Source: a virus. From it: 64,000 bases of DNA. The translations under genes and the position numbers were made by a program. The stretch covers positions 40,908 through 104,907 of the IMG/VR virus record IMGVR_UViG_3300041411_000053; one strand, given 5' to 3'. This document shows positions 7,449-39,444 of this stretch, in pieces. Below the pieces are notes generated by a model. It made no database searches and was not told the DNA's origin. It worked only from the letters and a program-made list of their open reading frames with translations. The stretch's first letter is position 1, and every line of letters starts with the position of its first letter.

Positions 7449-7688
7449 TTATTCAGCTTTATCTTTAACATCAATTTGAATAATAGATTCAATCTCATCA
7501 AGTCCAAGGTGTAGGATCTTCATGTTCTCAGATGCTGAAACCTTCCACTCAACACTGGTAATCGCTCCACCAGCGGACTTGATGTTCATCTTATCAAACC
7601 ATGCTTCAATGACATAACCACTCTTATAAGAGATACGTACCTTGTACATCACGTTGGTTTCATTGTTAGTGTTCACTGCTTCACTCAT
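7449..7688 (-). CDS. hypothetical protein, 79 aa
   Basis: MSEAVNTNNETNVMYKVRIS..., ATG at 7688 inside the end of the upstream gene, with AAGGGG about ten bases before it. Predicted mostly beta strand. Function unknown; last gene of a long overlapping run. Confidence 0.7.
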   Translation of the reverse strand: MSEAVNTNNETNVMYKVRISYKSGYVIEAWFDKMNIKSAGGAITSVEWKVSASENMKILHLGLDEIESIIQIDVKDKAE

Positions 7689-11632: not shown

Positions 11633-13462
11633 TTATGCAGCAAGGTTAGGCATTGCCTTGGTTACAAGAGTCGTGCCAGCCAATCCAGCAGTGGTAACAA
11701 CCCAGCCCATTGGACCGCCAGCAACCATTCCACGCCGCCAGATACGGTGATCTAACGGGTAGAAGAAACCATCAGATGGAGCAGCTGTAGCCCTGTGTTC
11801 GGTTACAGAAATAAACACCCACTCTACGTTACCAATTACTTGATAAACACGTTCAAGAACCAATGTACCAGACAACGGTACACAAACAGCAGGTTCACCG
11901 TTGATGGAGATGTTACCAGTGTTGACCACTGTGATTGGTCCAGTAAGTGCACGAATACTAACCCGTTCACCCGGAGCAACCAGAGATTTCAACGTCGCTA
12001 ACTTCAGGCTAGGATCGCCCGGTGCAGGGTTAATAACAACGAACTTATGCCCGCCTATATCAATATCACCACCGGTAAGAACCATGGTTTTGTAACCAGC
12101 AGCCTTGTATTTCTGGTATGTATCACCATACGCCAAACCTTCCACTTTCAGACTTCGAATGTTATTCAGGTTTGTAGTTGGTTCAAGGTAGTTATCAACA
12201 ATACCAATAACATCAGAAGTCGATTTGAATTCCAATGCAGCACTGGTGTTCATTTTAAAGAAGTAACCAGTACCAGCCACACCACCAACACTACCATCAG
12301 CAGCGTTAGCCAAGTGGTTAGACTCAAAGGTCAAGTGAGCATTGGTAGACAAGTCAATAAGCTCAGCAATGTCTTCTACCCAAGCACCCTGTACAGATAC
12401 CTGACGGCAGTTCTTAGCTACAATACCTTTGCGAGATTTCTGAATAGAGAAACCATTACCAAAGTTGACGTTGTATGGAGCCTGCACAGCGTTACCTGTA
12501 CCAGCGGTGTCAGATGTACTTTCACCATGACCACTGCTGTTGTCAGCCATTGTCGATGGTTCTGGGTCCATACCAATGTTAATACAGATACCTGCCACAA
12601 CACTATCACGACCTTCAGCAGACCCACCACGGAACTCAATCTGACCATGTTGACCTGTCATGCGGAGCGCTTCACCACCAGTTGGAACTTGGATGAATAC
12701 TTTGTCGAATGTCAGGAACTGAATAGGACGCTGGTAGTTGTTGATGGTGTATCCACCACGTGTCCAAACACCTTTGTTGAAGTTAGAGAATCGAACATCA
12801 CGAAACTCAGAGTACCAAAGACCACCATGTTGGTAAGTTGCATCCCATTGTGCTTTGGCGTACATACCCCATTGCTCAGCGTTCACTGTTGTTTGTGCAA
12901 ATCCCGCAACAGCACTACCCATGAAGTGCATACCGATCATGTGGGACGATGACACAGCACCCGGTTCAACTTCAATCATTCCGAAGTGACCTGTTGTTCC
13001 AACAGCCAAGGTTGTAATGTAAGTAACACTAGAACCATCACCAACCCAACTCACACCGTGTTGCTTGACCATTTTGGTGTGAGGGTAGCTACCTGTTGGA
13101 TATCGAATCCAACCACCACCTTTTGACTTAAGGTAAGCGGACGCTGCTGCTGTAGCAGGAGTCCAATCCCATGTTGATGGAGCGATGGTTGGTCGATTGG
13201 TGATTACGTGTTGATATTCCCAAATGTTGACCTGCAAACCTGACAACATCATACTTACTGTATCAAGTACCTCGGTCAGAGGTTTACGTTTAAAGCCCAA
13301 CAGTTCTGAACCCAAGTCAGGGTCAGCAAGGTCACTTGTCAGCGTGTCAACACGGGCGTCAACAGCACCTTCTGCATCAAAAGCGTAGTCAAAAGCACCA
13401 GCCTTGATTGCTCCAATAACTCCATTCTTACTTACGACTGTTACTAATTCATCTTTATTCAT
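11633..13462 (-). CDS. tailspike, beta-helix, probable polysaccharide depolymerase
   Basis: A 609-residue protein. Residues about 45-75 (GSELLGFKRKPLTEVLDTVS) match the short N-terminal particle-binding segment that precedes pectate-lyase-like beta-helices in tailspikes and capsule depolymerases. The next part (WTPATAAASAYLKSKGGGWI ... YPTGSYPHTK) is the classic first rung of such a helix, and Gly/Asn/Val-rich rungs continue to about residue 420, followed by beta domains likely for trimerisation. No chaperone-cleavage motif was seen. It lies 40 kb from the tail genes and has its own promoter and terminator, so it was probably exchanged as a cassette and determines host range. The substrate cannot be read from sequence. 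Confidence 0.85.
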   Translation of the reverse strand: MNKDELVTVVSKNGVIGAIKAGAFDYAFDAEGAVDARVDTLTSDLADPDLGSELLGFKRKPLTEVLDTVSMMLSGLQVNIWEYQHVITNRPTIAPSTWDWTPATAAASAYLKSKGGGWIRYPTGSYPHTKMVKQHGVSWVGDGSSVTYITTLAVGTTGHFGMIEVEPGAVSSSHMIGMHFMGSAVAGFAQTTVNAEQWGMYAKAQWDATYQHGGLWYSEFRDVRFSNFNKGVWTRGGYTINNYQRPIQFLTFDKVFIQVPTGGEALRMTGQHGQIEFRGGSAEGRDSVVAGICINIGMDPEPSTMADNSSGHGESTSDTAGTGNAVQAPYNVNFGNGFSIQKSRKGIVAKNCRQVSVQGAWVEDIAELIDLSTNAHLTFESNHLANAADGSVGGVAGTGYFFKMNTSAALEFKSTSDVIGIVDNYLEPTTNLNNIRSLKVEGLAYGDTYQKYKAAGYKTMVLTGGDIDIGGHKFVVINPAPGDPSLKLATLKSLVAPGERVSIRALTGPITVVNTGNISINGEPAVCVPLSGTLVLERVYQVIGNVEWVFISVTEHRATAAPSDGFFYPLDHRIWRRGMVAGGPMGWVVTTAGLAGTTLVTKAMPNLAA

Positions 13463-13510
13463 CTGATTATTCCTTTTAGAGAAGTATTCCTTAGAGCAAT
13501 ATTAATCGTG

Positions 13511-13539
13511 ATTATACCGCATATCCAGCTAAAAGTAAA
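13511..13539 (-). promoter_or_regulatory. promoter of the tailspike gene
   Basis: Minus strand TTTACT - 17 nt - TATAAT. The -10 is perfect. It lies between the preceding terminator (13562-13591) and the tailspike. Confidence 0.65.
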
Positions 13540-16034: not shown

Positions 16035-17041
16035 TAAACCAACTCCCTTTTAAATCCAAGCTTAGGTTTCGACCAATTACGTGTGTACTGGAGTTGTGTA
16101 GCTGCAAAGAAGTCTGGAATCTTTACGGTAGACAATTGCTGATAGAACCAACCACTAATTACACCTTGCTTTGGGCGTGAAAACATTGGTGGACGACCAA
16201 GACGATTACGTACAACATCCAATCGATCCTCAAGGAATTCAACACACTCTTGTTCTTTAACTACACGGTTGTTTCCAACCTCAAACATCTTACGAATAAT
16301 CAACAACTCATGGTTGTAAACATCCATTGTGATCTTGTCGATCTTTGTATTCAGAATATTGTCACGACGTGTACTATGATTACCCATTTCTTTACGTTCA
16401 GCTTTACATTGTTTGAACAAGTTAGCCGATGCAATGGAATGGAAGTTTTCATCTTTAGTACTACCATCAATACCACTAACAAAGTGTGGAATCAGATTGT
16501 AACCACGACTGTTAAAGCCTTTGAAGTAACCAAAGATGGAAAACAGAATAGCACCTTCCAAGAACGCAAGTGCAGCAGTAACTTCCAATGCATCATTGCT
16601 ACTTGCACATTCACTGATGAACGCCATACGCTCGGCAAGGATTGGATCAAGTTTCCACTGAGTGTAAAACTCATCAGTTGCCTTACCCAAAACCTTGTTA
16701 CCAAGATCGTAGAAAGGTGCATGTGAACCAAGTTCTACGTTAGCAAAACAAGCAGCCATACGTTGAATCTCAGGACGGGGGAACAACTTTGCAATCTTAC
16801 CACCCCACAGTTCATCACCACCAATCATCAACTCATATTGAGTTAGAATCGATTGTGCTGTCAGAATACCGTGAAGTTCACCTTCCGTCAGGTTGGTTCG
16901 AAAGTCTTGTTCATCATCCTCTACACCCAGTTCTTCAGCGGGCCAGAACAATGATTGTTGCTGGATTGCCATCTGAGTAGCCCAAGGATAATGAGCTACA
17001 TATGAATCGGTTGGTGTTTCAATTTGACTCAGATACTTCAT
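16034..17041 (-). CDS. nrdB: ribonucleotide reductase, class I, small (beta) subunit
   Basis: Provides the tyrosyl radical for NrdA. Of the di-iron site one sees His107 with Tyr111 four residues later (HAPFY), the same His-Tyr spacing as the radical tyrosine of E. coli, Glu103 before it, Glu162 in the hydrophobic helix (AFLEGAILF), and the E-x-x-H pair Glu198/His201 (DENFH). In E. coli the first pair is ExxH; here it reads E-L-G-S-H, with one extra residue. Length 335 is normal. It starts in an ATGA overlap with the gene upstream. Confidence 0.93.
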   Translation of the reverse strand: MKYLSQIETPTDSYVAHYPWATQMAIQQQSLFWPAEELGVEDDEQDFRTNLTEGELHGILTAQSILTQYELMIGGDELWGGKIAKLFPRPEIQRMAACFANVELGSHAPFYDLGNKVLGKATDEFYTQWKLDPILAERMAFISECASSNDALEVTAALAFLEGAILFSIFGYFKGFNSRGYNLIPHFVSGIDGSTKDENFHSIASANLFKQCKAERKEMGNHSTRRDNILNTKIDKITMDVYNHELLIIRKMFEVGNNRVVKEQECVEFLEDRLDVVRNRLGRPPMFSRPKQGVISGWFYQQLSTVKIPDFFAATQLQYTRNWSKPKLGFKRELV

Positions 17042-37186: not shown

Positions 37187-38083
37187 TTACTTGTTACGCA
37201 TGTCCATGATCATTGGGATATTACCGTCACCACCCATGATTGTTTGCGGCAGACCACCATCCCACTTCTCAGCCAGAATCTTCTGAATCTCAAGCTCTTT
37301 GATACGCAGGGAGCGAGGATCTACAGCGGCTGCCAATACCATTTGTGCTTGAGCTTCTGTCTCAGCTTTCTCTTTGTCAATTGCACGCTGCATCTTGGCT
37401 TCTTGCAGTTCACGAGACAGTTGAACCTTGCTTACTTCGAGTGCTGCTTCTTCCTGAGCGATCATCTCACGACGTTTTGCACTGTTCTCTTGTGCTTCGG
37501 TGATGATTGGTGGGTACTTAATGTTGGTCAAACCAGCATATCGTACAGTAAACGGTGTACGCTCAGACATTACCTTAGACAGAATCACCTGAATGTCAGC
37601 GTTGATCTTCTCACCATTCGAAGCAATTTCGGAAATGGTGTATCGAGTCAGGTACGAACGAACTTCAGCTTGCAACACCTGACGACCATATGTCCCGTAG
37701 ATCGACTCAGCAGAAATCTTACTGAATTGGTCAGTCTCTGCAACTTGAGGAAGCTTGTTGAACATTGCTTCAGCTTTGGTTGGGTCAACAGACAGCGTTG
37801 CACGCAGATCAACCTTTACAATCAGCTTGTCGCCGGGAATGAAGATTTCCATCGGTTCAACATAAGACTTGTCGGTGGTGTCCAGTACTACCAGACGATC
37901 ACAGTAAGCATTACAGAATGGAAGACGAAGCTTCGAAGTTGGAATCAAACCTTCTTGGTAACCATCTTTTGTCATGATCTTGCCGACAAAGCCCGGTGGA
38001 ACTTCAACTCGCTCACCACAACCAACCATCAGGGTTGCAGCCAGTGCCAATGCGGAAGCTTTGATCAGATTGCTAAATTTCAA
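37187..38083 (-). CDS. SPFH/prohibitin-like lipoprotein, 298 aa
   Basis: Signal peptide with basic start and lipobox LMVGC (Cys22), so it should be lipid-anchored. Residues 27-200 follow the SPFH (band 7) order: VPPGFVGKIMTKDGYQEG, IFIPGDKLIVKVDLRATLSV, a central AESIYGTYGRQVLQAEVRSY, then KYPPIITEAQENSAKRREM. A charged coiled coil (about 205-255) follows, as in prohibitins that build ring assemblies. In bacteria such proteins (HflK/HflC) guard the FtsH protease, which degrades the lambda CII protein; a phage copy might act as a decoy or modulator. That role is inference. Own consensus promoter at 38119-38147. Confidence 0.82.
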   Translation of the reverse strand: MKFSNLIKASALALAATLMVGCGERVEVPPGFVGKIMTKDGYQEGLIPTSKLRLPFCNAYCDRLVVLDTTDKSYVEPMEIFIPGDKLIVKVDLRATLSVDPTKAEAMFNKLPQVAETDQFSKISAESIYGTYGRQVLQAEVRSYLTRYTISEIASNGEKINADIQVILSKVMSERTPFTVRYAGLTNIKYPPIITEAQENSAKRREMIAQEEAALEVSKVQLSRELQEAKMQRAIDKEKAETEAQAQMVLAAAVDPRSLRIKELEIQKILAEKWDGGLPQTIMGGDGNIPMIMDMRNK

Positions 38084-38118: not shown

Positions 38119-38147
38119 ATTATACGGAAGTCAGATTAGTGTGTCAA
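38119..38147 (-). promoter_or_regulatory. consensus sigma-70 promoter of the SPFH unit
   Basis: Minus strand TTGACA - 17 nt - TATAAT, eight bases after the stop of the 40-aa gene. Confidence 0.9.
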
Positions 38148-38155
38148 CAACTATT

Positions 38156-38278
38156 TTAACGCTTGATTTTAAACTCATTTGGGATCGAATCAAGTTGATT
38201 CAAAATTGAAGCCATTACCTTTTGATCTTGTTCACGTTGTACATTGCGATCCTGTTGTGCTTTCAAAGCCTTCTCCAC
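38156..38278 (-). CDS. small basic helical protein, 40 aa
   Basis: GTG start with AGGGGAT six bases before it; VEKALKAQQDRNVQREQDQK..., Gln/Lys-rich. Lies between the tRNA-like element and the SPFH promoter. Function unknown. Confidence 0.6.
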   Translation of the reverse strand: MEKALKAQQDRNVQREQDQKVMASILNQLDSIPNEFKIKR

Positions 38279-38321
38279 AATTATCCCCTAATGGTTTTGG
38301 TTGGAATGTTGTAACATGTAA

Positions 38322-38430
38322 GGTGGCACGGGTGGGAGTCGAACCCACATGCTTTTCAGCCCCAGTATCATCAGTAACTGTCACCGTATACTGAATCCTC
38401 CAGTCTGTCTACCAATTCCATCACCGTGTC
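38322..38430 (-). tRNA. oversized tRNA-like element, isotype unclear
   Basis: On the minus strand a perfect T-arm (GTGGG - TTCGACT - CCCAC) is flanked by a 7-bp acceptor stem (GACACGG / CCGTGCC, one A-C mismatch) and a D-arm typical of type II tRNAs (GGAATTGGTAGACA). In between, a normal tRNA has 45-50 nt, this one about 56, giving a total of 109 nt. No single standard anticodon arm fits: ACTG - GAGGATT - CAGT gives GGA without U33; CAGT(T)A - CTGATGA - TACTG gives GAU with a bulge; a GCT - GAAA - AGC variable arm follows. CCA is not encoded. It may be a degenerate tRNA, a tRNA with an insertion, or a tRNA mimic. Confidence 0.55.
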
Positions 38431-38454
38431 TTTATGATCTTTACGGTTTGAATT

Positions 38455-38793
38455 CTACGCTAGTCGTTTCTTCAAGTCAAGCACTTCTTGTTCAAGTTTT
38501 AAAATTCGCTCAAGCAGATTACCTTTGTACAACTCTACATCGTCATGATTGACTTCACCCCAGATTTCACGTTCATCTTCAGGAGTGTATGTTGGCTTGC
38601 CAGTAGAGAGTAAAAGCTTGCTGAATGGAAACACACAATTTGTTTCATGCTGGCGATGTGACTCCCACAAGGTGTAGTGTACTAACGCTGTATCACCTAT
38701 CAAATCAGTTACAACCCCAAACGATCCATGGTTGTTGAAACCCGGATTAATAATCTTTACCTTGTCATCAATTTCAAGCTTACGATACGCCAC
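38455..38793 (-). CDS. hypothetical protein, KOW-like with C-terminal coiled coil, 112 aa
   Basis: MAYRKLEIDDKVKIINPGFN then NHGSFGVVTDLIGDTALVHY: an SH3/KOW-like barrel (residues 8-50), then acidic stretch and a coiled coil at the end (LLERILKLEQEVLDLKKRLA). Such proteins often bind nucleic acid or ribosomes. Adjacent to the tRNA-like element and EF-Ts-domain gene. Confidence 0.75.
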   Translation of the reverse strand: MAYRKLEIDDKVKIINPGFNNHGSFGVVTDLIGDTALVHYTLWESHRQHETNCVFPFSKLLLSTGKPTYTPEDEREIWGEVNHDDVELYKGNLLERILKLEQEVLDLKKRLA

Positions 38794-38818: not shown

Positions 38819-39112
38819 TTAGATGCAAAGTGTACCTGAGCTTCTGAGATAGTCAACTGCTTTATCCATATCGCCGTCAGAGTGCTTGAGAGCCTTGTGA
38901 CACGACATCATACCCTCACCTGTACGTTGACGCAACTCTCTAACCATGTCCGTTGTAATCACAGTAGGTGTCATCATATCGTCAAGAACGATAGTCATGT
39001 ACTCAAGGTGTTGTGTAGCCTCACTGCAACCACCGTGTGCTTCAGTCACAACAGCGGTAATAGCTTGAATCATTTTATGCATTTGGTCAAGCTTATCGTT
39101 TACTGTTGACAT
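38819..39112 (-). CDS. small protein with an EF-Ts-type UBA/TS-N domain, 97 aa
   Basis: Residues 53-93 read [20 protein letters not shown] followed by [22 protein letters not shown], almost the textbook N-terminal TS-N domain of elongation factor Ts (KELRERTGAGMMDCKKAL...DG..ExA...LR). The EF-Ts core and TDVG motif are missing; residues 1-45 are a helical region with Met/His repeats. TS-N contacts EF-Tu, so this protein may target translation or EF-Tu, perhaps during takeover. ATG 39112 (AAGGG eight bases before) is preferred to 39118. Confidence 0.75.
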
Positions 39113-39444
39113 CACCATTGCCCTTCAGGAAGTTTGTTTCTCATCACACCATCTGCTGCAAACTTGTTCCAACTGATGCGAAGGTTATCTGGTATGTATT
39201 CTGCTGTCAACCCTGTTCGTTTCAATACAGACAACACTGATTCAGTTCGTACCGGATGTTCTTCATACTTCCTGAAGCAAAGGCATGTTGCCCAACTACC
39301 GTTATTGAATCGCCAGCTTCGAGGATGAACACCACAGCGACCACATTTAGACCAACCGTCTGTATCTACAAGCATTTCGTAAGCATCAATGTGTCTCATC
39401 TCATACAGCTTGTCAATCTCTTTATCACTAAAATTACTGAACAC
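39112..39444 (-). CDS. zinc-binding hypothetical protein, 110 aa
   Basis: GTG start at 39444 with GGAGA seven bases before it, inside the end of the upstream gene. Metal-binding pattern CGRCGVHP ... CLCF (four cysteines). It reads [16 protein letters not shown]..., the C-terminal part ending LPEGQW. Function unknown. Confidence 0.7.

Follow-up and report, generated by a model that had tools for sequence, protein, structure and literature searches.

A candidate tRNA-Leu mimic with a variable arm in place of the anticodon arm, located in the leader of a phage mRNA

That phages make stable tRNA-like RNAs has been known since work on T4 in the 1970s, with no function assigned to them. The thrS operator is a mimic of tRNA-Thr in an mRNA leader, where it controls the gene behind it. 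The element described here resembles the thrS operator and other leader tRNA mimics in lying just upstream of a Shine-Dalgarno (SD) sequence; however, thrS mimics the anticodon arm, whereas the phage element lacks that arm and sits before different genes. tmRNA (RF00023) likewise ends in a tRNA-like domain without an anticodon, but the phage element keeps the D-stem, and no match to RF00023 was found in the window, the 64,000-nucleotide stretch analysed here. T4 RNA C (species 1 RNA) is a stable phage RNA of 139 nt (PMC3014915, PMC9697503). It shares with the element a canonical T-arm (CCGGG-TTCGAAT-CCCGG) and, in part, an acceptor, but it sits in a tRNA cluster, has no Leu D-arm, and its acceptor is 5/7 paired by eye; no sequence homology between the two was seen. 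Finally, tRNA-Leu of E. coli requires A73, A15-U48, G18G19 and A20a for leucylation (PMC9976931), and variants lacking both the anticodon arm and the variable arm stay active (PMC9976931, citing Larkin 2002). The recognition set retained in these minimal transcripts equals that of the phage element, although the former are laboratory constructs and the latter is a natural RNA carrying an additional payload.

Among Pseudomonas phages, sRNA2 of PAK_P3 is one of the most transcribed late features by RNA-seq, and its description reports just an 11-nt match to T-loops (PMC4933390). By inspection, sRNA2 (L309 26308-26430; NC_022970 about 86307-86429) is an RNA of ~120 nt with a 7-bp acceptor (GCTGTGT/ACACAGC), a T-arm and a large replaced middle that contains the inner helix CTGTTGC/GCAACAG. 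Matches to it are present in 170 GenBank phage records, and in the Pakpunavirus homologs the acceptor and inner helices have changed with pairing preserved. Apparently, this published RNA is a tRNA-like RNA earlier unrecognised as such and, by analogy, it may serve as an expression precedent for tRNA-like RNAs in related Pseudomonas phages. It differs from the element in lacking a D-arm, in having a long helix beside the T-arm (a tmRNA-like layout), in its encoded CCA and in its location in a tRNA cluster; the window element, having a D-arm, does not fit the layout of the sRNA2 family. PAK_P3 sRNA1 was considered as a counterpart and rejected, as neither a T-arm nor an acceptor was seen in it.

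The window belongs to an IMG/VR phage record of 104,907 bases. Its tRNA-like element occupies 107 nt of the minus strand, from G1 at 38430 to A73 at 38324; its acceptor, D- and T-arms are intact, but a canonical anticodon arm is missing. The original prediction of an oversized, aberrant tRNA-like gene is thereby borne out, its length of 109 nt corresponding to the element plus the next CC. The element reads GACACGG-TG-ATGGAATTGGTAGACAG-A-CTGGAGGAT-TCAGTA-TACGGTGACAGT-TACTGA-TGATACTGGG-GCTGAAAAGC-AT-GTGGGTTCGACTCCCAC-CCGTGCC-A. Acceptor strands GACACGG (38424..38430) and CCGTGCC (38325..38331) form 6/7 pairs, the sole mismatch being A-C at 2-71; A73 is followed by CCT, with no encoded CCA. The T-arm GTGGG-TTCGACT-CCCAC (38332..38348) is fully paired (5/5), and the Leu-type D-arm (38405..38421) contains A14, A15, G18, G19 and A20a, of which A15 pairs with U48 (38349). 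The D-arm word GTGATGGAATTGGTAGACA occurs once in the 64 kb, even with three mismatches allowed, against 0.02 occurrences expected by chance. The Rfam tRNA model RF00005 spans the whole element at 26.4 bits, just under the threshold of 29, aligning the acceptor, D- and T-arms with a long insertion between. ARAGORN made no standard tRNA call: it reported 0 tRNA and 0 tmRNA genes in the whole window, and around the element neither an intron-tolerant run nor tmRNA mode returned any gene. A 5-bp anticodon arm with a 7-nt loop and U33, as expected of a decoding tRNA, was not found; the best approximation is a 4-bp stem with the 7-nt loop GAGGAUU, lacking U33. Since the folding energy of the element is no better than that of shuffled sequences (z = 0.02), the case rests on comparison with relatives. 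Cloverleaf-constrained energies were not used, because for two sequences they fell below the free minimum, apparently as forced non-canonical pairs were tolerated. Two other readings were dropped: folding of the plus strand yields no tRNA, and the frames of an ORF within the payload (GTG after GGAGG) by eye end differently in L013 and L027.

To judge by its SPFH lipoprotein, the phage is kin to Pseudomonas phages vB_PpS_SYP and Boevelstad and to Otagovirus Ep020, a member of Vandenendeviridae. Among 19 contigs found with the lipoprotein as a query, elements of the same kind occur one per genome in L012, L013, L014, L019, L026 and L027, and on other fragments (L099/L118). The lengths of the eight members of the group, without A73, are 82, 89, 101, 102, 106, 126, 153 and 161 nt. 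L010 and L011 retain the lipoprotein promoter; no element was found at their corresponding promoters, and their whole records are without a D-arm match. An exact T-arm/acceptor search of viral contigs returned no match, and BLAST of the element against named phages gave only short T-arm matches, none covering the element. The nine ordinary tRNAs of the phage cluster ~65 kb from the element and include none for Leu. The presence of a genuine tRNA-Leu in a phage was considered as a correlate and dropped, since it explains neither the presence nor the absence of the element.

In the window, a promoter (TTGACT-17-TAGAAT, 38452..38480, minus strand) ends 21 nt before the element, and an SD sequence (AGGGGA, 38284..38289, minus) follows 34 nt after it. 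The element thus lies in the leader of a small ORF of 40 aa with a GTG start (38156..38278, minus), which has element-less counterparts in L010 and L013. Further on is the SPFH/Band 7 lipoprotein gene (37187..38083, minus; PF01145, 8.7e-11; phrog_200) with its own promoter (38119-38147, minus). A sigma-70-like promoter precedes and an SD sequence follows each of the nine leader copies, which start 9-21 nt after the -10 box and end 9-34 nt before the SD. The promoters have 10-12 of 12 matches to the sigma-70 consensus (the one in L398, on another contig, has 10 and a 15-nt spacer), and no terminator was found behind the element on the minus strand. Judged by these comparisons, the promoter-element-SD geometry is fixed, and transcription from the strong promoter would give a phage mRNA whose 5′ end holds the element. 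We propose, with a probability of about one half, that selection maintains the element as a tRNA-Leu mimic that does not decode, carried at this end of the mRNA and equipped with a variable payload arm.

The strongest rival to a trans-acting RNA product is a cis-acting leader, in which the element would stay on the mRNA, and a tRNA-binding protein, LeuRS or RNase P through its cutting, would control translation or stability of what lies downstream. The constant leader position is equally expected of such an element and counts against our reading to that extent; the proximity of the SD, the missing terminator and the absence of an encoded CCA also agree with it. However, the gene behind the element is not constant: it is the SPFH lipoprotein in L012, L013 and L019, the 40-aa protein in the window and other, unrelated small proteins elsewhere. 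Moreover, the window and L027 copies, whose shared parts are nearly identical, belong to two distinct promoters within one gene region. The element is therefore not bound to one gene, and the payload arms vary freely, which leaves control in cis rather unlikely, though it is the alternative to be taken most seriously. The tRNA-Leu mimic would instead work chiefly in trans, as an RNA product not tied to a single gene behind it; we prefer this in view of the varying downstream genes and of the similar RNAs found within tRNA clusters.

The middle of the element differs from that of a tRNA and also between phages. At the place of the anticodon stem, CUGG (38400..38403) may form a short stem with 38362-38365 (CUGG/CUGG here, CUGG/CCGG in L027 and L398), enclosing a payload hairpin (38371..38394) with a 6-bp stem, UCAGUA/UACUGA, and a 12-nt loop, UACGGUGACAGU. 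The CAGTAT/ATACTG words noticed earlier are indeed present, and it is this hairpin that comparison supports. The loop, UA(C/A)GGUGACAGU, is shared by the window, L027 and L013 and is flanked by six pairs, either UCAGUA/UACUGA or AUCGAU/AUCGAU; L013 carries the loop as in the window on the AUCGAU/AUCGAU stem, so that 5/6 pairs differ on both sides. The chance of six flanking pairs around a random loop is 0.003. The 3′ side of the frame, UGAUACUGG (38362..38370), contains UGAUAC, kept in L027 and L398; in L398 the frame CUGGAGGAU...UGAUAC(C/U)GGGGCUGAAAAGC is retained and the hairpin is replaced by GGGAUAAUGCAACCAUUAUCCU. The short variable arm GCU-GAAA-AGC (38351..38360) corresponds to UCC-GUAA-GGA in L013 and is enlarged by more than 50 nt in L027, a copy otherwise similar to that of the window. 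L012 and L026 have a common frame and variable arm but payloads of very different length. Sequence comparison thus indicates that the middle is modular, the payload being exchanged between phages within a constant frame, and that the anticodon is lost, with no usable one in the element. The suggestion of an internal insertion is supported to the extent that an exchangeable hairpin stands in for the anticodon arm.

A constant tRNA body with a hypervariable arm on the anticodon side could also be a decoy for host defence enzymes that attack tRNAs (e.g. anticodon nucleases), the arm being shaped by an arms race. Multi-copy sets with different payloads in other phages and an RNA ligase in the same region of related phages would suit such a role. 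Yet the payload does not have the shape of an anticodon loop, which known anticodon nucleases need, and we regard the decoy as improbable. The original prediction had invoked a mimic engaging tRNA-processing or tRNA-cutting enzymes and had pointed to a nearby EF-Ts-domain gene and an RNA ligase. Part of it stands, since the element retains what RNase P and LeuRS recognise; the tests made lent no support to an involvement of tRNA-cutting enzymes, of the EF-Ts-like gene or of the RNA ligase, and the 99-aa protein at 38819-39118 does match EF-Ts_N, but below the Pfam cut-off (26.1 vs 33.2 bits).

Viral contigs were scanned twice and prokaryote genomes once for a Leu D-arm and a T-arm at unusual distance, which yielded 88 distinct elements at least 88 nt long. 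All fetched loci together held 243 distinct Leu-D-arm elements, a sample enriched in oversized ones by design: the anticodon arm is canonical in 170, its stem is split in 14, and neither form is present in 59, among which the simple test may have left a few ordinary tRNAs unrecognised. U48 is kept in 57/59 of the last set. The split-stem class (14/243; shuffled middles gave 5.6% of those tested) raises the question of whether the window element could be a tRNA-Leu whose insert is spliced out to give a working tRNA. A tRNA of phage G013 (L170, 20343-20453, minus; RF00005 57.6 bits) does carry a 36-nt insert within its anticodon loop, CUCA[36 nt]UAA, its D-arm, T-arm and anticodon stem all being canonical. 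For the window, though, no excision of an insert was found that leaves a 5-bp stem closed by a 7-nt loop containing U33, nor did the class test place the element among those whose 5-bp stem is split; group I introns far exceed such an insert in length. In addition, insert-free L019 and L118, with a 4-bp stem and a 7-nt loop, still have A34 anticodons (AAU and AAA), not normally used by bacteria. Splicing is thus slightly less probable even than the decoy. The anticodon loop is also split, by inserts of ~20-70 nt, in the tRNA-Leu genes L375, L196, L390, L447, L449 and L468; these inserts are too short for a group I intron.

Selection on the proposed tRNA-Leu mimic is apparent in its outer half. 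Across the eight members, 95% of cells in the acceptor, D-stem and T-stem are paired (100% in the T-arm), and 9/15 pairs, including 6/7 acceptor positions, have changed on both sides. The covariation score is 0.510, compared with 0.209 (sd 0.033) for shuffled alignments, none of which scored as high (0/500), and with 0.07-0.20 for slid controls; adding four elements from other phages raises it to 0.703 over 12 sequences (0.238 shuffled). A14, A15, G18, G19 and A20a of the D-loop are invariant in 8/8 members, U8 is kept in all, position 48 is U in 8/8, and A73 is found in 7/8. By this comparison the outer tRNA half is under selection in the phage group, and decay, which had been raised as an option, is contradicted. 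A tRNA-Leu pseudogene retained by chance, which the absent anticodon, the acceptor mismatch and the sub-threshold Rfam score might suggest, is very improbable given compensatory double changes in 19 cells of the alignment, the invariant D-loop and U48, a payload stem likewise changed on both sides and a perfect acceptor in the longest copy, L027. What counts against the mimic itself is the A-C mismatch at 2-71, the D-stem pair 10-25, unpaired in half of the copies, and L019, which carries U73.

With its acceptor/T-arm stack, D-arm and A15-U48 core kept, the element could be treated as a tRNA by the tRNA machinery of the cell. Since RNase P accepts an intact acceptor/T stack as its substrate, it would probably clip the leader, with the cut expected at G1. 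The LeuRS recognition set (A73, A14, A15-U48, G18G19, A20a) is complete in the window copy, which makes binding plausible, and since LeuRS does not read the anticodon, the enzyme might bind or even charge the element; the requirements used here are those of E. coli, and the Leu character is partly ascertained, as the searches were keyed on the Leu D-arm. An encoded CCA is found in 0/8 members, and nearly all ordinary tRNAs of the same phages have one; charging would thus need a CCA-adding enzyme. The absence of CCA fits a leader that never becomes a charged tRNA, and also one to which CCA is added during maturation. The hairpin module at the place of the anticodon arm, exchanged between phages, would set the target. 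Cleavage, LeuRS binding and action in trans are what we infer from these conserved features.

Anticodon-less RNAs on a tRNA chassis recur in other phages. One phage record (G020; L513-L516: 133.0-135.5, 137.8-139.8, 148.5-149.8 and 159.0-161.2 kb; also L517-L523) has 14 copies of a single T-arm/acceptor chassis, AGTCAGG...CCTGACT, with middles that differ and vary greatly in length, mostly a Leu-like D-arm GGCGGAATTGGTAGACGC and the T-arm ACAGGTTCGAATCCTGT. Rfam sees these elements as tRNA only, and further copies of the chassis are present in other contigs. We tentatively suggest, with less than even confidence, that the window element belongs to a large class of phage RNAs, sometimes with a dozen or more copies per genome, in which a chassis of LeuRS-charged or LeuRS-bound tRNA, mostly tRNA-Leu, never decodes and carries a swappable effector module. 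Our literature searches, with incomplete coverage of preprints and subscription papers, found no description of the class, and anticodon-less tRNA-chassis RNAs in phages are apparently an undescribed set.

Several further tRNA-like sequences were noted. The window's own genome has a second oversized candidate, of 159 nt, in its tRNA cluster (L172, L326; G000 about 13375-13533, minus), with acceptor ACCGGAA/TTCTGGT, a T-arm and no D-arm, near-identical in G004. A recurrent chassis type in L382, L467, L469 and L245, with more than one copy in L469, has the common middle GATTCTTG..AAGAATC..CAGCAA. In L408 and L410, GGCU/AGCC in the middles on a Leu chassis could interleave with AGUAUC/GAUACU or CGCAUC/GAUGCG, and these helices, which show compensatory changes, may form a pseudoknot. 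L169 (G019 7489-7626) contains two neighbouring oversized tRNA-like elements, ~110 and 122 nt, with D- and T-arms intact. Lone irregular tRNA-Arg(UCU)-like sequences in Boevelstad (L165; W01 16691-16770, minus) and vB_PseuGesM_254 (L166; W02 77386-77458) lie directly upstream of an SD and a gene, again in the leader position.

RNAs whose tRNA-Leu body stays constant while an arm is swapped, and whose position between promoter and SD is fixed, lend themselves to testable predictions on the RNase P end, leucylation and the target of the payload. They also suggest that functional RNAs may be hidden among the oversized ‘bad tRNA’ calls of phage genomes.
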